Positions 963-32,217 of a stretch of DNA of 64,000 nucleotides are shown here, one piece after another. The position numbers and the translations under genes were made by a program. The notes beneath the pieces were generated by a model. That model was given only the letters and a program-made list of their open reading frames with translations. It had not been told where the DNA came from and made no database searches. Source of the DNA: Synechococcus sp. RCC307 (lineage in GTDB: Bacteria > Cyanobacteriota > Cyanobacteriia > PCC-6307 > Cyanobiaceae); NCBI GenBank assembly GCA_000063525.1, contig CT978603.1:987105-1051104 (forward strand), in the 5' to 3' direction. The stretch's first letter is position 1, and every line of letters begins with the position of its first letter.

Positions 963-1309
963 TGCTCGCCTACCTCGTTGCCACATCACTGCTGATCCCG
1001 GCCAACCTCTGGGCTGCGATCACCCCGCACCTGCATAGCGAAGTGTCGATGCGGATCCTGCATGGGCTCTCCACGCTGGCGCTGCTGCCGTTGCTCTGGC
1101 AGCTCTGGGTGCGCCGCAAGCAAGATCTGCTCGTTTTCAGCCTGGTGTTGGCGGTGTTTTTGCTGGTGATGGTGGTGGTGAACGGTTGGATCACCTTTAT
1201 GGGGATGGGCGTGCAATTTGGCTGGCTGGATCACATCTTTTTGGCGATCGCCTGCAGCAGCGTGATTGCCTATTTCTTTGCTGAGCCCTCGTTGAGCGAA
1301 GGCGGCTAG
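962..1309 (+). CDS. Small multi-pass membrane protein, unknown function
   Basis: A 115-residue protein with about three to four hydrophobic segments (residues 1-20, 33-50, 57-78 and 88-108) separated by short basic or polar loops, so it is almost certainly an integral membrane protein. It starts within the stop of the histidine kinase (TGATG), which suggests translational coupling and perhaps a role with that kinase, such as signal input. I do not recognise the family. Its 3' end overlaps the convergent DUF1028 gene by four bases. Confidence 0.75.
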   Translation: MLAYLVATSLLIPANLWAAITPHLHSEVSMRILHGLSTLALLPLLWQLWVRRKQDLLVFSLVLAVFLLVMVVVNGWITFMGMGVQFGWLDHIFLAIACSSVIAYFFAEPSLSEGG

Positions 1310-2010
1310 GCCACCCCGGCGTTCAAGCCGCCGTCATCAGCGGGCCTGGGCCTGCCGTCGGGAAGGGCTGCGAATTGATCACGCCAGTGCTGCACCCAGT
1401 TCTGCTGGCTGTGCTCATAGAGGTGTTGCAGCTCGCCGACGGCAGTGGCGTTGAAATCCACGCGCAGATCCAGCAGCGGGAAATCCAGCTCGCCGCTGAC
1501 CTGCAGCGCTGCTGAGCTGGCCATCGGTGAGCGCCGATCACCACCAGCGGCTTCACCGGCCGCCAGCGCGCTCAACACCCGCCGGCCAATCTTCCAGCTG
1601 GGGTTGCTGTCGCGGAAGGTTTCGGCCATGGCCTCCAGCACCGCTGTGTTCTCGAGCCAATTGCCAGCCACGCTGAAGTTCTCGCCGCAGAGATGGCCGG
1701 CAAAGCCATTGCACTCTCCACCGGTCCAGGCCGATGAGCGCCCCTCGGCGTCCACCAGTTGAATCTGCCGGGCGTTGCGTTGCTCATCGCCTTTGAGCAG
1801 CCATTCGAGGGCTTCATTGGCGCTCAGTCCATTGCCGAGGGCTTCCAGTCCGCGGTGGGCCAGATAAGGGTTGGTGGCGCCTTGGCTGGCAGCAGCTCCA
1901 ATGTTCCTGCGCAGATGAGGAACGGTGGCGCCCACAGCGAGGTGGAACGTCGCCACAGCGACAGCAAATCGACCATTCCCAGGGTCTCGGGCAACGATCG
2001 AAAAGGTCAT
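1306..2010 (-). CDS. DUF1028 family protein (Ntn-hydrolase fold)
   Basis: A 234-residue protein beginning MTFSIVARDP, the typical start of DUF1028 proteins, which adopt the Ntn-hydrolase fold. The family pattern continues with conserved Gly/Ala-rich stretches (AVAVATFHLAVGATVPH, GAAASQGATNP) and a region around GRSSAWTG. The biochemical role of the family is not established. The ATG at 2010 overlaps the stop of the upstream amidohydrolase (TGATG), so it is the last gene of the carbamoyltransferase-asparagine synthetase-amidohydrolase operon. This suggests a role in the same nitrogen pathway, for example hydrolysis of a related amide. A longer upstream frame exists but would overlap the neighbour heavily. 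Confidence 0.85.
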   Translation of the reverse strand: MTFSIVARDPGNGRFAVAVATFHLAVGATVPHLRRNIGAAASQGATNPYLAHRGLEALGNGLSANEALEWLLKGDEQRNARQIQLVDAEGRSSAWTGGECNGFAGHLCGENFSVAGNWLENTAVLEAMAETFRDSNPSWKIGRRVLSALAAGEAAGGDRRSPMASSAALQVSGELDFPLLDLRVDFNATAVGELQHLYEHSQQNWVQHWRDQFAALPDGRPRPADDGGLNAGVA

Positions 2011-3290
2011 CAGCCCGGCACCTTGTTCAAGCGCTGATCCAGGCGCACCAGGCTTTGCATCAATACAGCGGTGCCGTCGGCGCACTGACGGCTGCTGGTG
2101 AATTCAGCTGCTGAGTGGCTCAATCCGCCGCGGCTGGGCACAAAGATCATTCCCATGGGCCAGCGTCGGCCCATTTCCTGCGAGTCGTGGCTGGCGCGGC
2201 TCGGCAGGGCGCTGCAACTCAAACCCAGGGTTTGGGCGGAGGCAGCAATGGCCTCAGTAACGCTCAGATGGGCGGGGGTGGGATCAACGCTGAATTGAGG
2301 CAGCAAAGAGATGGGGCAACCGCTCGCCCTGCTGATGCTGTGGAGCCGGCTTTCCAAGTCCTCCACCAATTCGCTCAGAACCTCGAGGCTGAGGTCGCGC
2401 AGATCAACGCTCAGCTCCACCTGGCCTGGCACCACGTTGGCGGCATTGGGCCAGAGCTGGAGTTTGCCAACGGTGCCCACGGGATCACCGGGGTGGTTGT
2501 TGGCCAGCTCTTGCACCGCCAGGATCACTTGGGCCGCAGTGGCCAAGGCGTCCTGACGGGCATCCATGGGTGTGGTGCCGGCATGGTTGGCCTGGCCTTC
2601 AATGCGCACCAAAAAACGGCGCTGGCCCACAACGCCCTCCACCAAACCGATGGCATCACCGCGGCTCTCGAGAATGCCGCCCTGCTCCACATGGAGCTCA
2701 ACAAAAGCGGCGATGGCGTCGTCAGAACGCCGTGCTTGCGCCAGCTGCTGCCAATTGCCGCCTGTGCGGGGCAGGTTGTCGCTGATCGATTGGCCGTTGC
2801 TGCAGGTGTAGTCAGCCGGGTTGTCGCTGGCGACTCCAGTCATTCCCTTGCAACCCACCATCGTGGACTCTTCATCGGCAAAGGCCACCACTTCCAAGGG
2901 GTGGCGCAGGCTGATGGCTTGATCCTTAAAGCTGCGGATCACTTCCAGCCCAGCCAACACTCCGAGGGCACCGTCAAAGCGGCCGCCGGTGGGCACGGTG
3001 TCGAGATGGGATCCCGTCACTAGGGCGGGCAGGCCTGGTTCTGTGCCTTCAATGCGGCCAATCAAATTGCCAGCGGCATCAATGCGAATGCTGGCTCCAG
3101 CGGCGATCAACCACTCGCTGAACAGGGTGCGGGCGCGGCAGTCGTCCTCTGTGAAGGCCAAACGCTTGACTGAGCCATCGTTTTGCAGGCCGATGGCGGC
3201 CATGGCATCCAAACTCGCGCTGAGGCGAGCCTCATCAACTGTTGCTGTCCAACTGGGTGTTTGGAGTGAAAGAGCAACCGATGGAGGCAT
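2010..3290 (-). CDS. M20 amidohydrolase, N-carbamoyl-L-amino-acid hydrolase / allantoate amidohydrolase type
   Basis: Zinc-dependent amidohydrolase of the M20 family, 426 residues. Family members remove the carbamoyl group from N-carbamoyl amino acids, ureidopropionate or allantoate, releasing ammonia and CO2. Visible metal-site motifs in order: GSHLDTVPTGGRFDG, DEEST, ELHVEQG, the lid-domain segment NHAGTTPM, the SHDSQEMG stretch and the C-terminal GGLSHSAAE. I chose the ATG at 3290 because the extra upstream residues (TTG at 3332) lack family character. It follows asnB by about 80 bases and overlaps the DUF1028 gene by one base, so it is likely the third gene of the nitrogen operon. The exact substrate cannot be read from sequence. 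Allantoate, ureidoglycine and N-carbamoyl amino acids are all possible. Confidence 0.85.
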   Translation of the reverse strand: MPPSVALSLQTPSWTATVDEARLSASLDAMAAIGLQNDGSVKRLAFTEDDCRARTLFSEWLIAAGASIRIDAAGNLIGRIEGTEPGLPALVTGSHLDTVPTGGRFDGALGVLAGLEVIRSFKDQAISLRHPLEVVAFADEESTMVGCKGMTGVASDNPADYTCSNGQSISDNLPRTGGNWQQLAQARRSDDAIAAFVELHVEQGGILESRGDAIGLVEGVVGQRRFLVRIEGQANHAGTTPMDARQDALATAAQVILAVQELANNHPGDPVGTVGKLQLWPNAANVVPGQVELSVDLRDLSLEVLSELVEDLESRLHSISRASGCPISLLPQFSVDPTPAHLSVTEAIAASAQTLGLSCSALPSRASHDSQEMGRRWPMGMIFVPSRGGLSHSAAEFTSSRQCADGTAVLMQSLVRLDQRLNKVPG

Positions 3291-3370
3291 GCAGCACAGC
3301 AGACGCCCCGTAACAATGGCCACTGTGGCCAATCACTGAGGTAGCGCAGGCGACTATTTCGCGGAGCCAG

Positions 3371-5392
3371 TTAAAAAACCTGTGCCGGTTCGCTCACATG
3401 CCAGCCCCGTGCATCGGCGGCCTGGCGGGCCTGGGCGGGCACATCGGTCTGCACAAACAGCTTGTGCAGGATTTGCACTCCCAATAAGTGATTCACCATT
3501 GCATCGAGCTGAACCTTTTCTGCTGCTGGTGTTTCTGGGTTGCGGTGGCGCTCGAGCAGCTGCGCAACACCCTCTGGATCCAACAAACCGCAGGTTCCGA
3601 TCGCCTCGCGGCTGAGATGGGCCGCTACGAGCTGATCAAGCTTTTGCAGCTTCTCCTCATCGGCATGGGCCGGTGGGGCCATGAACGCAAATTTCTCGCG
3701 GTGATAGAGCCGCTCAGGCAGCAGTCCAGCGACGGCTTCGCGCAGCACATGCTTTTCGCGCTGGTCTTTGATCCTTAGGTCGGGGGGAACCTGCACCGCC
3801 ACGGCGGCGAGATGGTGATCCAGGAACGGTGGCCTGGCCTCCATCGAATTGGCCATGTCCACCCGGTCTCCGCCCCAGGTGAGGATTTGGCCCTCCAGCA
3901 TCGTTTTGATCCACACGTACTGGGCCCGGTCCAGCACATGGCGCTCGTCGAGTTGTGAGCGATCCAGGGTGGCGGCAATGGCTTTGCCTGGCTCATAGCC
4001 AGCCATCGCTTCGCGGCGTTCGCTGGCCAGCAGTCCTGGCACCAGCGGGGCGCAGGCCAGCCACGGCTGCAGGCAGCTAGGGGTGAAGCCCACCGTTGCT
4101 GTGAGGTGGGGATCATCCACGGGCTTGGCGGCGAGCATGGCTCCTGTCACCAGGGCATTGGCTTGATCCAGCCGTTTTTGGCTCTGGTCTTGGTCGCCCC
4201 CATCGCTGCCGTGCAGGAACATGTCGCGCCGGAAGGCGGGGTAGCCGGCAAACAGTTCATCGGAGCCTTCGCCGGTCAGCACCACCTTGTAGTTGACGTG
4301 CCGCACATGGCGGCTCATCAGATATTTCGCCACGCCGAGAGTGTTGTAGATCGTGCGCTCGGTGTGCCAGAGGGTCGTTTCGAAATGGTCGTAGAGGTCA
4401 TCGCCTGAGAGGCGCATCACGTCCTGTTCGGCACCGGTGGCCTCAGCCATCTCCTTGGCGATATCGGTTTCGTCGTAGCGGCTGTCGTCAAAGCCGATCG
4501 TGAAGGCCTTCACCGGGGTTTGATTCACCGCGGCGGCCAACCCCAAGATCGAGCAGCTGTCGATGCCGCCGGAGAGATAACAACCCACCGGCACATCAGC
4601 CACCAGCCGCATTTCGATCGCCTCCAACAGCGAGCGGCGGATGGCGTTGATGTGCTGCTCTTCGCTGATGCTTTGGTCGCGCTCGTGGTCCTTGGGGAAA
4701 TCAAGGTCCCAATATTTATGGCCGGATGTGCGCAACAGCCCGCCTTCGCGCTGCACTTTCACCACATGGCCTGGTTGCACTTGGAAAATGCCGGCAAAGG
4801 CGGTGCTGCCCGGCACCATCGTTTGCATCAGTTGGTGGAACAGGCCTTCGGAGCTGAAATCCCGCTTCACTGCGGGGTGGGCAAACAACACCTTCAGCTC
4901 AGAGCCAAACACCAGTCCCTGGCTGGTCATCGTCCAGTACAGGGGCTTGATACCGAAGCGATCGCGCACCAGATAGAGGCAGTCCTCGTCGCGATCAAAC
5001 AGGGCAAAACCAAATTCGCCGCGCAGTTGCGGCAGGGTCGCCTCGAGCCCCTCGCGCAGATAAAGATGCAGCAGGATTTCTGAGTCGCTCTTGCTGTTGA
5101 AGCGCACGCCTTGCGCCACCAGTTCAGCGCGAATCCTCTGGAAGTCGTAGAACTCGCCGTTGTGGGCCATCAGCACCCGATCACAGCTGGATCGGAATGG
5201 CTGGCGGGCGCGGTTGCCCTCGAGATCAATGATCGAGAGGCGCGCATGGGTCATGCCGACGCCACTGTCGTGGATTTGGTAGCCAAAGCCATCCGGACCG
5301 CGATGGGCCTGGATCGCGGCCATGTTCACCAGCAGCTGGGGATCGATTGAATCACCCGCGTGGTGTGTGAAAACGCCTCCGATGCCGCACAT
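3371..5392 (-). CDS. asnB: Asparagine synthase (glutamine-hydrolysing), AsnB family
   Basis: Cytosolic class II glutamine amidotransferase, 673 residues, the usual length for the longer bacterial AsnB type. The N-terminal glutaminase domain begins MCGIGG with the nucleophile Cys2 and shows RGPDG, NGEFYD and SDSE. The synthetase domain carries the ATP pyrophosphatase loop LSGGIDS and the TGEGSDELFAGYP segment. The family activates an aspartate-like carboxylate with ATP and transfers ammonia from glutamine to it. It lies one base after the carbamoyltransferase stop and upstream of an M20 amidohydrolase. This operon is unusual for plain asparagine synthesis, so the acceptor could be a related or carbamoylated acid. 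That last point is inference. Confidence 0.92.
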   Translation of the reverse strand: MCGIGGVFTHHAGDSIDPQLLVNMAAIQAHRGPDGFGYQIHDSGVGMTHARLSIIDLEGNRARQPFRSSCDRVLMAHNGEFYDFQRIRAELVAQGVRFNSKSDSEILLHLYLREGLEATLPQLRGEFGFALFDRDEDCLYLVRDRFGIKPLYWTMTSQGLVFGSELKVLFAHPAVKRDFSSEGLFHQLMQTMVPGSTAFAGIFQVQPGHVVKVQREGGLLRTSGHKYWDLDFPKDHERDQSISEEQHINAIRRSLLEAIEMRLVADVPVGCYLSGGIDSCSILGLAAAVNQTPVKAFTIGFDDSRYDETDIAKEMAEATGAEQDVMRLSGDDLYDHFETTLWHTERTIYNTLGVAKYLMSRHVRHVNYKVVLTGEGSDELFAGYPAFRRDMFLHGSDGGDQDQSQKRLDQANALVTGAMLAAKPVDDPHLTATVGFTPSCLQPWLACAPLVPGLLASERREAMAGYEPGKAIAATLDRSQLDERHVLDRAQYVWIKTMLEGQILTWGGDRVDMANSMEARPPFLDHHLAAVAVQVPPDLRIKDQREKHVLREAVAGLLPERLYHREKFAFMAPPAHADEEKLQKLDQLVAAHLSREAIGTCGLLDPEGVAQLLERHRNPETPAAEKVQLDAMVNHLLGVQILHKLFVQTDVPAQARQAADARGWHVSEPAQVF

Positions 5393-5393
5393 G

Positions 5394-6518
5394 TCAGATC
5401 ACATCCATGACTTGGTCGGTGCGCTCAACCATGCAGGTGAGCAGCGCCATGCGCAGGAACACCGCTCCCCTGGCCTGCGCGAAATACCAGTTTTGGGGGG
5501 TTTCATCCAGCGAAGAGCAGAGCTCGCGGCCCCGTGCCAGGGGGTGCAACACGATTGAGCCCTCCTTGAAATCGGTGTCGGAGCTGAGCTGGAAGTTGCT
5601 GCCATGCACTTCAAAGCCATCGCCAACCCAGGCGATCGCGTTGATGTAGGTGACATCGAAGCGGCCCACTTCATCGTTGAGGCGGGTGGCTAAGCGCAGC
5701 TTCAAGCCGCTTTGCTCGAGCGCTTCGCGTTGGCCCGCATCGAACATCGTCTCGGCGGGATCGGTTTTGGGGTCGTGCAGGATCACGATCTCCTCAACGA
5801 TCTGCGGGAATTTGCCGAGGATCTGCAGCAGCGAGCGAACGGTGCGCATGCGCGATGGCACCCCAATGATTCCGATGCGGATGCGATCGGAGCGCTCCAC
5901 TTCTTGGCGGCACAGCGATGGCCTCCACTTGAGGATCGTGTAGAGATCCGTCATCGCCTGGGTCGGATGCTCACCGATCCCGTTGCCGGCATTGATGATC
6001 GGAATCTTCAGCGAGGTGGCCATCTCGTAGATGGCGGTCTCGCTGGTGTCGCGCAGCACCACGCAATCGCCGTAGTGGTTGAACATCTCAGCGATGTCGC
6101 TGAGGGATTCCCCTTTGGCAAGCCCTGTGGTGGAGGGGTCGGTGATGTTGATGGAGTCACCGCCTAAGCGGTGCCAGGCGCTGTCAAAGGACAGCCGGGT
6201 GCGGGTGCTGGGCTCATAGAAGGCATTGATGAGGATCTTGCCCTTGAGCGGCGAGTTGAAGCGGATGTAGCGCGCTGGATTGCTTTCAAATTTCGCCGAC
6301 AAACGAAACAGCTGACGCAAGGTGCGCGGGCTGTAGGCGTTGATCGAGATGACGTGCTGATTGATCAGCTCATGCAGCGCTTCGCCGTCTTCATGGATCC
6401 ACGACAGCAAATCCGTTGGAGAGGCAATCCCTGCGGTGTCGGCCTTCTCTCGGTTGAGCCGCAGCTGTTGCTTGAATTCCAACTGGTCAGGTTGCAAATG
6501 GCTAACGGCTTGGCCCAT
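5394..6518 (-). CDS. Aspartate/ornithine carbamoyltransferase family protein with altered amino-acid site
   Basis: A 374-residue homologue of PyrB with a roughly 50-residue N-terminal extension over the usual 310. Carbamoyl-phosphate contacts are intact: STRTR (104-108), Lys135 in the AKGES loop, Arg156 in VVLRD, HPTQ (184-187) and Arg225 in RMRTV. The second-substrate side differs. Where E. coli PyrB has the MTRVQ loop that binds aspartate, this protein has YINAIAW (291-297), and HPLPR is HPLARG (325-330). The C-terminus still aligns well (TPQNWYFAQA). It is therefore probably a carbamoyltransferase, but perhaps not for aspartate. It is the first gene of the asnB operon, and a perfect GTAN8TAC box lies about 140 bases upstream. 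The ATG at 6518 gives the longest convincing frame. Confidence 0.85.
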   Translation of the reverse strand: MGQAVSHLQPDQLEFKQQLRLNREKADTAGIASPTDLLSWIHEDGEALHELINQHVISINAYSPRTLRQLFRLSAKFESNPARYIRFNSPLKGKILINAFYEPSTRTRLSFDSAWHRLGGDSINITDPSTTGLAKGESLSDIAEMFNHYGDCVVLRDTSETAIYEMATSLKIPIINAGNGIGEHPTQAMTDLYTILKWRPSLCRQEVERSDRIRIGIIGVPSRMRTVRSLLQILGKFPQIVEEIVILHDPKTDPAETMFDAGQREALEQSGLKLRLATRLNDEVGRFDVTYINAIAWVGDGFEVHGSNFQLSSDTDFKEGSIVLHPLARGRELCSSLDETPQNWYFAQARGAVFLRMALLTCMVERTDQVMDVI

Positions 6519-6659
6519 AGCGTGGATCCAACTGAGCAGTGCTTGATGGGCCGAAAAGTATCGATCGACTCCATCAACCCGTCATAGCAAAGTGATCCAG
6601 GTGTGAATCAGGGCTGCGATATTCAGCTTTCCTTCGTGATTGAGAGCGTTGAGATTTCA

Positions 6660-6673
6660 GTATCAAGAGCTAC
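6660..6673. promoter_or_regulatory. Predicted NtcA-binding site (GTA-N8-TAC)
   Basis: The sequence GTATCAAGAGCTAC matches the NtcA consensus GTAN8TAC exactly. NtcA is the global nitrogen regulator of cyanobacteria. The box is in the 239-base gap between the 72-residue membrane protein gene and the carbamoyltransferase gene, about 140 bases before the latter's ATG. No clear -10 hexamer (TAN3T) stands at the usual 20-24 base spacing on the minus strand, which weakens the call. A six-base match is expected about 0.06 times by chance in a gap this size with equal base use. The rest of the gap shows no other clear element. Confidence 0.5.
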
Positions 6674-6757
6674 TGGCGTGAGGTGTTTTGGCTCGTTCAG
6701 CAACAGCCTGAGCAGCAGAAAATACGAATTAATTGATGACGGTTGGTTTCGCTGATG

Positions 6758-6976
6758 TCACCAGAGCTTTCCCTTCTGCCATTCCCGAAACCAGATCGTC
6801 AACAAAACCACCGTGGCGAGTAAAAGCCCGAACAATCCGCCGTAGACAATCCAGCGGAATCCTTCGGCTCCTACTTCCAAGCTCGGGGTTGAGGGCGCGT
6901 CTTGCTCGGCGGCATGGGCTGCGATGGCGAGACAGCTGCTAACCCCACTCAGCGACAACCAGGAACGGCGCTTCAT
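6758..6976 (-). CDS. Small membrane protein with signal peptide, next to symporter
   Basis: A 72-residue protein. Residues 1-22 (MKRRSWLSLSG...AHA) look like a cleavable signal peptide. After a short polar stretch, residues 41-63 form one hydrophobic segment, and the tail is basic and aromatic (FREWQKGKLW). Predicted topology is N-out, C-in after cleavage. Its ATG overlaps the stop of the sodium/solute symporter (ATGA), so the two are co-translated. A dedicated small partner of the transporter is likely by context. I do not recognise a named family. Confidence 0.75.
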   Translation of the reverse strand: MKRRSWLSLSGVSSCLAIAAHAAEQDAPSTPSLEVGAEGFRWIVYGGLFGLLLATVVLLTIWFREWQKGKLW

Positions 6977-8394
6977 GCTTCCTCCTGCAATTGGGACCAG
7001 CGGAATTCAGCGGGCCAGAAGCGGCTCGCCACGATCATCACCACAGCTGATACAGCGGCCGAAAGCACCGCAGCGCAGTAGGGCGCAATCAGCCAGTAGG
7101 CCGCTAGTCCGCAGGCCGTTCCGGCGAGCATGGCAGCGATGGCACCGCTGCGGCTCGCTGTTGGCCAATACAGCCCGCAGGCCACTGGCCACACCGTGGA
7201 AGCCACCAAGGCACCGGTGAAGAACAGCACGCTGGCGAGCGAATCCAAACGCGGCCAGGAGAGCAGCAGCGTCAGCCCGCCCAGCAGCACCACCATCCAC
7301 TGGGTGGCGAGCTTGAGTTCCCGGTCGCTGGCTTCTGGTTTGAACAGCTTTAAAAACACGTCTTCCGCCAACAGATCAGCGGTGGAGGCCAGCAAGGAAT
7401 CCAGCGTTGAAGTGAGCGAGGCGAAGACCACGATGAATACCAAGGCAGCGCCGCCGGCCCCCAGCAATTGCGCCGTCATCACGGGGAACACCATGTTCAC
7501 TTGGGGCACCTCGAGCTTGCTGGCCAGGGCCAATAAGCCAATCGATCCGGTGACGATCGGAATCGTCATCCAGCCCAAACCGCCCAACACAAATGAGCGG
7601 AACACCACATTGCGGCGCGAGGCAAACACCCGCGACCACCAGATATTGCTGTGAAACACCTCTCCCATCGAAAACAGGGCGGAGTTCCAAGCGATGAGCA
7701 AGCCCGCTGGCAGCAGCAGGTTGAGCCGCTGCGGGTGGCTAGCGATTAGGGCCTGGTGCACCTCACTGCTGGGGAAGCGCATGTAGGCCAGTGCTGCCAC
7801 CACCAGCAGCAACACCATGATCAGCAGCGACTGGATGAAGTCGGTTCCCACCACCGCGCGCATGCCGCCAAACAGCGTGTAGATCGTCGACACCCCAATC
7901 ACCACCACCATCCCAAGGCGGTAGTCAAAACCGGAGAGGGCCTCCAGCAAGATCCCCGCCCCCATCGCCTGGGTGATCAAAAAGCCCAGGGTGTAAATCG
8001 CTGTGATCACCATGAACACCCACCAGGCGGCGCGGCCATAGCGCAGGCGAATGAAGTCGCCGCTGGTGCGGGCCGATGGCATCAAGTCCTTGATGCGCAG
8101 GGCCAAAGGGGCAAACAGGATCAGCCCTAGACCCGCCAGGGCGTAGCTGAACATTCCCCAGAGGCCGTTGCGGTAGCCGAATTCAGGCGCCAATAGGGTT
8201 GTGTTGCCAGTGACCCACGACGCCATCAAGGTCGCTGTGCTCAGGGCCAGGCCGATGTTGCGGCCGGCCAGCATGAACTCATCGGCGTCGCCTTTGCCTT
8301 GGTGACCCCACCAGATGCCCAGGGCAATCCATAAAACAGAGAACAGCACCACCAGCATCCAGGCGATGCCGGGGGCCAAGAACGGTTCAGCCAT
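6973..8394 (-). CDS. Sodium:solute symporter (SSS family), urea/ureide-transporter-like
   Basis: A 473-residue integral membrane protein with about 13 hydrophobic segments, the normal size for SSS transporters, which import small solutes with Na+. The segment after TM2 (ASWVTGNTTLLAPEFGYRNG, then GDFIRLRYG) resembles the DUR3-type urea/polyamine branch more than the proline branch. The family signature region includes GGMRAVVGTDFIQ and STLDSLLASTADL. It overlaps a 41-residue membrane ORF at its start and the 72-residue membrane protein at its end. Downstream lie carbamoyltransferase, AsnB and carbamoyl-hydrolase genes, so urea, an ureide or an N-carbamoyl compound is a plausible cargo. Substrate assignment is inference. 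Confidence 0.88.
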   Translation of the reverse strand: MAEPFLAPGIAWMLVVLFSVLWIALGIWWGHQGKGDADEFMLAGRNIGLALSTATLMASWVTGNTTLLAPEFGYRNGLWGMFSYALAGLGLILFAPLALRIKDLMPSARTSGDFIRLRYGRAAWWVFMVITAIYTLGFLITQAMGAGILLEALSGFDYRLGMVVVIGVSTIYTLFGGMRAVVGTDFIQSLLIMVLLLVVAALAYMRFPSSEVHQALIASHPQRLNLLLPAGLLIAWNSALFSMGEVFHSNIWWSRVFASRRNVVFRSFVLGGLGWMTIPIVTGSIGLLALASKLEVPQVNMVFPVMTAQLLGAGGAALVFIVVFASLTSTLDSLLASTADLLAEDVFLKLFKPEASDRELKLATQWMVVLLGGLTLLLSWPRLDSLASVLFFTGALVASTVWPVACGLYWPTASRSGAIAAMLAGTACGLAAYWLIAPYCAAVLSAAVSAVVMIVASRFWPAEFRWSQLQEEA

Positions 8395-26377: not shown

Positions 26378-28562
26378 GATCAAGCGTCAGTTTTTGCGAT
26401 CATTCTTGCTCGGACTGGTTTGTGTCTTTGTCTTTTCAGGACTGCCATCGTTGGCAGCGCTGAAGTCCACCGACTCAACTTCAATCAATTCCAAATACGA
26501 GAGCTCGTATCCTGTTATACCGATTGAAGAGCAGCCCTTTTACGAAGAATTGGTTAGTCGCGCTGATCTTTGGTTGCACACCCCTCTTGGTCAGGTGGTT
26601 GGCAATAGTCCAAGAGATACGTTGCTTAATTTCTATGCTGTGATGGCCGATGTTGGCATTGTGATTGACGATGTCACGGCTGCGCATATTAACGATCCGG
26701 GCTGGTTTTGGGATCGCCAGACATTGGCTGAGATGGAAGAAGCCGAAGAGCTGTTCAGCGCTGCAGTGGCGTCGCTTGATGCTTCCCTATTCCCGCAGGC
26801 TGTTCGTCCCTATTTGGCCGATGAGGCGGCGATCCAGCTGAAGCATGTCCTTGATTATGTGTTCCATAACAGCCGGCAGGAATTAACCATTCCTGATGCC
26901 AGCGGCATGAGGGTGATTAACGACGGTCGTAGCAAAGACACACAGTCATGGACGCTTCCTGGCTCATCCATCGTTATGACCAGTCAGCTGGCTGATGACC
27001 CTGTTAACACGGATTACTTCTTTTCAGCTGAAACTGTTCTGTCGGCAGCTCAGATGTATGACCATATTCGTTTACAGGCTGAGGAATTAGCCGCTGAGCC
27101 TTTTGTTGCCGCCACTTTTTACCAAGACTTTATTCACACTCCAGGTCACCTTTTCCCTCCTAAGTGGTATCTAATGATGCCGAAGCCTTTAAGAGGAGCT
27201 TTTGAGACAGAGGTATTGCTGGGTGAGACATTGTTCCAGGTAGCGCTGTCAATCATCGCTGTTGCTTTGTTTGCGCTTGTCTCGTTAAAGCTTATTCAAA
27301 ACTTGGTTTTGTCCTATCGAGATCACGCGCCGTCAAGGGACGATTTGCAGGGTATCTGGATGCTTGATGGTATCGCTTGGAAAAGGGTGTTAATTGTCCT
27401 TCCAATTCTGCCTTTGACCAAGCTAACAGAGCTGTTTGTGGATGAATATCTGAACTTTACTGGTGTTCCGCTGCTTGTATTCACCATTGTGTTTGAGGTC
27501 CTATTTTTTGGGATTTGCATTGTTTTCTCCTTCCTCTTTTTTGAAGCTCTTGGGCGATCGTTGTCAGAGGCATTCGTCAAATTTAGCGGCAGTCATGAGT
27601 CCTGGAAGTTATTGCGCACAAGCAATCGGATCATGCCTTTGTGTCGCATCAGTGCCGGCATTATTTCGATCTTTTTGATTTACAACATGCTTCTGCAGCT
27701 TGGCCTTTCTCCAACTTTGGTGCTTGCTCTTTCCACTGTTCCTGGCTTGGCCATTGGCCTTGGGGCCTCAAAGCTGCTTAGCAATTTATTTGCCGGGCTT
27801 TCACTGCAGACTGATCGTCCACTGCGTGTTGGAGAATTTTGCGAAATCGGAGGCGATCTGGGTTTCATCAGAAAAATCGGCCTGCGTTCAGTGGAACTTC
27901 AGACCGTTACTGGGATCGTGACGATTCCTAATTCTGTTGCTGAAGAAACTGTTGTTAATAACTTTTCCCGGAACAAAACTAATGCTGGATCCGTTCAAAG
28001 TCAGGGCCTTGAGTTGCGCATCGATCTGGATCAAGACCCTGCCTTTGGGCCTGATCAAATCACAGATCTTTTGGAGCTTGTCCGCCATAATCTCGCCTCA
28101 TCCGCCGAATTCTCTTGCACCTGTGTAACCGTTGAAGTTGATAGTGGCGATCAAGCGGTTCTTGTTTGCATTGGTTTGATCAAGGCTCAAGGCTGGTCCG
28201 ACTATCTTGCGATGAAAGAGAGAATTGCTGTTCGGCTGAAGCAATTAATTGACCAGGTCGAGCGATCTCACTTTGTCCTGCCGGTTGCCTATGAAACCAG
28301 TGCAGAAAAGCTGCAAGTCATCCCCAGTCTTTTGCGGTCGGTTGTTGCTGCAAATCCAGGCTTTTCGATGCGCGCGTGCCGATTGATGGAGATTTCAGAG
28401 TTTAGTTACGATTTCAAATGCCACCTTTTTGCTGATGGCATTGACTACAAATGCTTCAATGATTCGATTGACCGGATCAACAAAGCCATTCTTGCTGAAA
28501 TGGCGGCTCAACAGATCGTGATCCCTTATCCCACAGCGATTGAGATTCAAAGAGATGATTGA
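26376..28562 (+). CDS. MscS-family mechanosensitive channel, large form
   Basis: A 728-residue protein. Residues 1-29 look like a signal peptide. A roughly 250-residue extracytoplasmic region precedes a set of membrane helices (from about residue 288). The MscS core then follows, with pore helix ALSTVPGLAIGLGASKLLSNLFAG and the beta domain DRPLRVGEFCEIGG...VTIPNSVAEETVVNNFSR. The family opens under membrane tension to release solutes. G+C and codon use look clearly lower than in murF and glmU on either side, which suggests a different history. The start is GTG. The C-terminus carries an extra roughly 150-residue domain. It converges on glmU with 16 bases between. Confidence 0.85.
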   Translation: MIKRQFLRSFLLGLVCVFVFSGLPSLAALKSTDSTSINSKYESSYPVIPIEEQPFYEELVSRADLWLHTPLGQVVGNSPRDTLLNFYAVMADVGIVIDDVTAAHINDPGWFWDRQTLAEMEEAEELFSAAVASLDASLFPQAVRPYLADEAAIQLKHVLDYVFHNSRQELTIPDASGMRVINDGRSKDTQSWTLPGSSIVMTSQLADDPVNTDYFFSAETVLSAAQMYDHIRLQAEELAAEPFVAATFYQDFIHTPGHLFPPKWYLMMPKPLRGAFETEVLLGETLFQVALSIIAVALFALVSLKLIQNLVLSYRDHAPSRDDLQGIWMLDGIAWKRVLIVLPILPLTKLTELFVDEYLNFTGVPLLVFTIVFEVLFFGICIVFSFLFFEALGRSLSEAFVKFSGSHESWKLLRTSNRIMPLCRISAGIISIFLIYNMLLQLGLSPTLVLALSTVPGLAIGLGASKLLSNLFAGLSLQTDRPLRVGEFCEIGGDLGFIRKIGLRSVELQTVTGIVTIPNSVAEETVVNNFSRNKTNAGSVQSQGLELRIDLDQDPAFGPDQITDLLELVRHNLASSAEFSCTCVTVEVDSGDQAVLVCIGLIKAQGWSDYLAMKERIAVRLKQLIDQVERSHFVLPVAYETSAEKLQVIPSLLRSVVAANPGFSMRACRLMEISEFSYDFKCHLFADGIDYKCFNDSIDRINKAILAEMAAQQIVIPYPTAIEIQRDD

Positions 28563-32201: not shown

Positions 32202-32217
32202 GGTAGCGATTGCTACC
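32202..32217. repeat. Perfect hairpin in the aroA/DUF4278 intergenic region
   Basis: GGTAGC-GATT-GCTACC forms a perfect six-base stem with a four-base loop. It is located 59 bases upstream of the aroA ATG and 95 bases before the divergent small gene. There is no T-run, so it is more likely an operator or leader element than a terminator. The remainder of the 168-base gap shows no feature I can name. Confidence 0.4.

Follow-up and report, generated by a model that had tools for sequence, protein, structure and literature searches.

In the canonical class II NtcA promoter, a -10 element of the form TAN3T lies ~22 nt 3' of the NtcA box, and the box is centered near -41.5 from the start point. 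The NtcA box has GTN10AC in common with the CRP site, TGTGAN6TCACA. The canonical form is found in the genome of Synechococcus sp. RCC307 itself, where the glnA box is followed by N22-TACGTT and the urtA box by N21-TATTGT. For Synechococcus WH7803, section 5 of PMC9430850 reports predicted NtcA sites whose -10 boxes are degenerate or, in one case, absent. The genes studied here are also known in outline: an asnB-pyrB2-pydC cluster (Syn-eCAG_003/Pro-eCAG_007) has already been described, and suggested to serve alternative pyrimidine synthesis and the recycling of complex nitrogen forms, in an article whose main text contains no occurrence of ntcA (PMC10119275). In the open-access literature, we found no paper that brings NtcA and this operon together. 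Su et al. 2005, which is said to predict the NtcA regulon, might list the operon.

We analyzed a 64,000-nucleotide stretch of the RCC307 genome (the window). Its gene content at this locus equals that of Syn-eCAG_003/Pro-eCAG_007 as given in the main text of PMC10119275, and asnB, pyrB2, and pydC are adjacent here too, as judged by family and gene order; the identity of the two clusters rests on this gene content. The features of the locus are as follows.

1306..2085, minus strand: DUF1028 protein (PF06267)
2010..3332, minus strand: hydantoinase/carbamoylase family amidase, the published pydC (TIGR01879, 395 bits, cut-off 204)
3371..5392, minus strand: asnB-type glutamine-hydrolysing synthetase (TIGR01536, 430 bits, cut-off 267)
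5394..6518, minus strand: aspartate/ornithine carbamoyltransferase family protein, the published pyrB2 (PF02729 and PF00185, both above cut-off)
6519..6757, no strand: intergenic gap of 239 nt, holding the putative operator and presumably the promoter
6581..6589, minus strand: candidate extended -10, TGCTATGAC, inside a well-conserved block of the window's clade
6660..6673, minus strand: putative NtcA-type operator, GTAGCTCTTGATAC towards the operon, from the palindrome match and orthologue conservation
6758..6976, minus strand: 72-aa ORF ending where the gap begins, with no Pfam family over cut-off
6973..8394, minus strand: sodium:solute symporter family protein, the upstream neighbor (PF00474)

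The carbamoyltransferase and asnB genes are separated by 1 nt and the asnB and carbamoylase genes by 38 nt; the operon is preceded, on its own strand, by the symporter gene and the 72-aa ORF. The carbamoyltransferase scored under every NCBIfam equivalog cut-off, its best match being aspartate carbamoyltransferase. Orthologues were found at E ≤ 1e-100 in 66 of 400 family genomes, and there were 51 related loci in named genomes; among these, the closest relative, a Synechococcus MAG, has a 97% identical carbamoyltransferase. The order symporter, pyrB2, asnB, pydC, DUF1028 is mostly conserved among Synechococcus-type loci, and Prochlorococcus has all four genes with the symporter not linked. At seven loci (L038, L078, L080, L086, L089, L090, and L091), a diverged DUF1028 gene (40-42% identical) is reversed between asnB and pydC rather than standing at the operon end. 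Two loci from MAGs titled Trichodesmium (L048) and Gammaproteobacteria (L058) carry picocyanobacterial sequence here, probably through binning errors. We also observed that, at 6574-6585 (minus strand), GCTATGA occupies in the window's clade the place of GCTATGGC, a likely start in main-clade relatives; in the window this frame runs for three codons before a stop, and the start codon has apparently shifted to 6518.

The initial annotation had claimed an exact GTAN8TAC at 6660-6673, in the only sizeable gap of the nitrogen block. The 14-mer on the plus strand, GTATCAAGAGCTAC, indeed fits GTAN8TAC exactly, and the minus strand, which is the operon strand, reads GTAGCTCTTGATAC. The box lies 141 nt 5' of the carbamoyltransferase ATG at 6518, in a gap that runs from the stop of the 72-aa ORF to this ATG and that is the sole sizeable one between same-strand genes of the block. 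CRP half sites (GTGA/TCAC) are absent from the box, where the operon strand reads GTAG...ATAC. The window holds three perfect GTAN8TAC sites against 0.41 expected from dinucleotide shuffles, a count reached in one of 100 window shuffles, and by arithmetic from the shuffle rate ~0.0015 chance sites are expected in the 239-nt gap. The other two perfect sites are at 26507-26520 and 32203-32216, the latter in a short space between a minus-strand 452-aa ORF and a plus-strand ORF.

The initial annotation had held that NtcA control would be refuted if the intergenic regions of orthologues did not conserve the site; the site proved to be conserved there. For 77 symporter-linked Synechococcus/Cyanobium loci (89 minus 12 re-fetched copies, L082-L093; second copies of some genomes remained and were removed by clustering), we collected 220 nt of sequence 5' of the Met1-homologous residue. 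Clustering at 70% identity gave 21 upstream clusters, and one representative of each was scored. GTAN8TAC was matched at all six positions in 5 of the 21 clusters, compared with 0.14 in shuffles, and at no fewer than five positions in 18 of 21, compared with 5.8; the combined score was reached by none of 200 dinucleotide shuffles. Of the 704 palindromic dyads formed from 64 trinucleotides with spacers of 3-13, GTAN8TAC ranked first with z = 7.6, and again first with z = 6.9 when the window's cluster was removed, although the clusters are mutually related and the shuffle and dyad controls are therefore not strict probabilities. By raw counts, without correction for chance, it ranks lower, as 33 of the 704 dyads attain its 5/6 count and 18 its 6/6 count.

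Both nearest relatives, L002 and L094, have 6/6 sites. Three cluster representatives (L100, L011, and L012) have no 5/6 site, and further 5/6 sites are doubtful: those of L098 and L099 overlap a T[TAG]AAGA element (see below), and that of L155 is without the first G. L170 has a 6/6 site elsewhere than its in-register 5/6 site. Within the window's clade, the box is well conserved but not uniquely so: of 224 14-mers, 12 (the box included) equal or exceed it, and it is not the top block. The two orthologues that are non-cyanobacterial by title (L073 and L076) have no 6/6 site in the scanned stretch. Upstream of the symporter gene, we found scattered 5/6 matches only, and the box is not conserved there.

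At 35 Prochlorococcus loci without a linked symporter, GTN10AC is present in 33 and a 6/6 site in 12, but this box lies just 3' of a TATAAA in a region conserved throughout and was not counted as independent support. Upstream of pyrB2 at Prochlorococcus-type loci (e.g., L060, L077, and L181), we also noted CTGTAT-N7-ATACAG, an inverted repeat that 29 of 35 loci have in exact form and 34 of 35 in relaxed form. This repeat is always 96 nt 5' of a GTN10AC site, occurs at none of the 89 symporter-linked loci, and resembles a binding site for a different regulator.

The genome encodes NtcA (367 bits, cut-off 245), and its 2,224,914 bases hold 43 perfect GTAN8TAC sites. Seven of the 40 outside the window precede nitrogen genes, namely glnA, glnB, urtA, nirA, cynS, a NarK-type (nitrate) transporter gene, and an agmatinase-family gene; by a crude ORF finder, most of the others are in coding sequence or near other kinds of genes. 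The agmatinase-family gene, preceded by the perfect box G000:C1:2165514 (L149), may be the guanidinase gene speB2 that is discussed in PMC10119275. Two further perfect boxes stand before a gene that by eye resembles pstS (1208615, L137) and before a gene without an NCBIfam match (1727491, L144).

We put at roughly 80% the probability that the 14-mer functions as an NtcA operator for the carbamoyltransferase-asnB-carbamoylase-DUF1028 operon, with NtcA raising transcription under nitrogen shortage. Judged from sequence, the box is very probably a real control switch, NtcA would most likely be its reader, and NtcA control of the operon appears well supported. The suggestion made at the outset, that such control would tie the operon to nitrogen status, gains support from the perfect palindrome in the gap, the orthologue conservation, the conserved gene order, the presence of ntcA, and the seven boxes before classical nitrogen genes. 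When nitrogen is short and 2-oxoglutarate high, NtcA would bind the box, and its binding would raise transcription towards the carbamoyltransferase gene; here we infer activation rather than repression, and likewise the start point.

The promoter itself departs from the canonical form. As with glnA and urtA, a GTAN8TAC stands before a nitrogen-related gene; however, those two have TAN3T ~22 nt 3' of the box, whereas a TAN3T-type -10 is absent at 20-24 nt 3' of the window's box. For want of TAN3T at ~22 nt, the operon promoter is not classed as a canonical class II NtcA promoter. A scan of 6480-6780 also found no sigma-70 consensus promoter or terminator. Across the orthologues, TAN3T at N20-24 occurs in 0 of the 18 box-bearing clusters, compared with 1.0 in shuffles; the caution over a missing -10 that had accompanied the site was thus correct for the window and is general in the orthologue set. 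The predicted WH7803 sites offer a parallel, in that they too lack a clear -10 and have a similar distance to the start codon, so a missing -10 does not exclude NtcA control. Unlike the box studied here, they precede nitrate, cyanate, and cnaT genes, and a term search of the main text gave no mention of the carbamoyltransferase operon (PMC9430850).

Two other arrangements could supply the promoter. In the window's clade, the best conserved gap blocks include TTTGCTATGACGGG, which contains TGCTATGAC. TGCTATGAC could be an extended -10, and NtcA would then act from farther upstream, with the box centered near -92, a position comparable to that of the site in class I CRP promoters. In the main clade, a TGGACG/TGTTA pair noted by eye, with TGTTA ~60 nt after the box, could have a similar promoter role. 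Alternatively, in many other clades, a second conserved element ~19 nt after the box may take part. In 8 of 18 clusters (L003, L102, L104, L107, L113, L155, L163, and L170), T[TAG]AAGA starts 17-21 nt 3' of the box, where one would expect a -10, compared with a shuffle mean of 0.14 and none of 1,000 shuffles reaching eight, a count that is descriptive rather than a blind test since the element was noticed and counted in the same sequences. The element is absent from the window's clade. It was rejected as a -10, being without T at the sixth position, and a general composite of the form GTN10AC-N17-21-TDAAGA was also rejected, as it was not enriched over a reversed control in 10 pooled genomes. 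We regard it as possible, but rather doubtful, that many picocyanobacteria combine the box with a rigidly placed T[TAG]AAGA ~19 nt downstream that is read unusually by RNA polymerase or by a co-regulator, with a class I-like arrangement in the window's clade instead; such an architecture is not known to have been described for NtcA. In the leader, we found no known RNA in Rfam at the gathering score at five loci, and a hairpin considered for the main Synechococcus clusters was discarded as weak, at about -4.9 kcal/mol, and as losing pairs in some rows.

The same observations bear on an unlikely alternative, in which NtcA is a repressor here, or the box is one part of a composite site whose other part, T[TAG]AAGA, serves a second regulator, such that nitrogen status alone would not set expression. 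The set lacks a canonical -10 throughout, 8 of 18 clusters have T[TAG]AAGA at a fixed position 3' of the box, and there are known cases of genes repressed by NtcA whose box lies downstream of the -35 (PMC3898017). However, the element is missing in the very clade of the window, and the gene functions fit induction on nitrogen shortage.

We consider it very unlikely that the window's site is a chance match and that NtcA does not control the operon here. The distribution of the 43 genome sites, mostly in coding sequence or before other kinds of genes, and the empty place of the usual -10 are consistent with chance, but the conservation among orthologues, including perfect sites in the two nearest relatives, argues against it. 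That another CRP-family protein reads the site is scarcely credible: the genome does hold a second, weaker CRP-family match (72 bits to NtcA_cyano), and one-mismatch orthologues include GTG...TAC and GTA...AAC, but the perfect sites read GTA/TAC rather than GTGA/TCAC, and the same box form stands before glnA, urtA, and nirA in the same genome.

Activation by NtcA fits the proposed role of the cluster in recycling nitrogen from organic compounds. On present sequence evidence, the operon would be a new target of a known regulator, with a non-canonical promoter, and we file the 14-mer as an NtcA-type operator. This would place a widespread, uncharacterized marine picocyanobacterial cluster, with its upstream symporter, under the global nitrogen regulator. 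NtcA control would support a role in nitrogen recovery over housekeeping pyrimidine synthesis and would indicate the condition under which to seek the substrate of the cluster. The absence of a -10, together with the shared element 3' of the box, makes these loci a concrete case on which to test non-canonical NtcA promoters.
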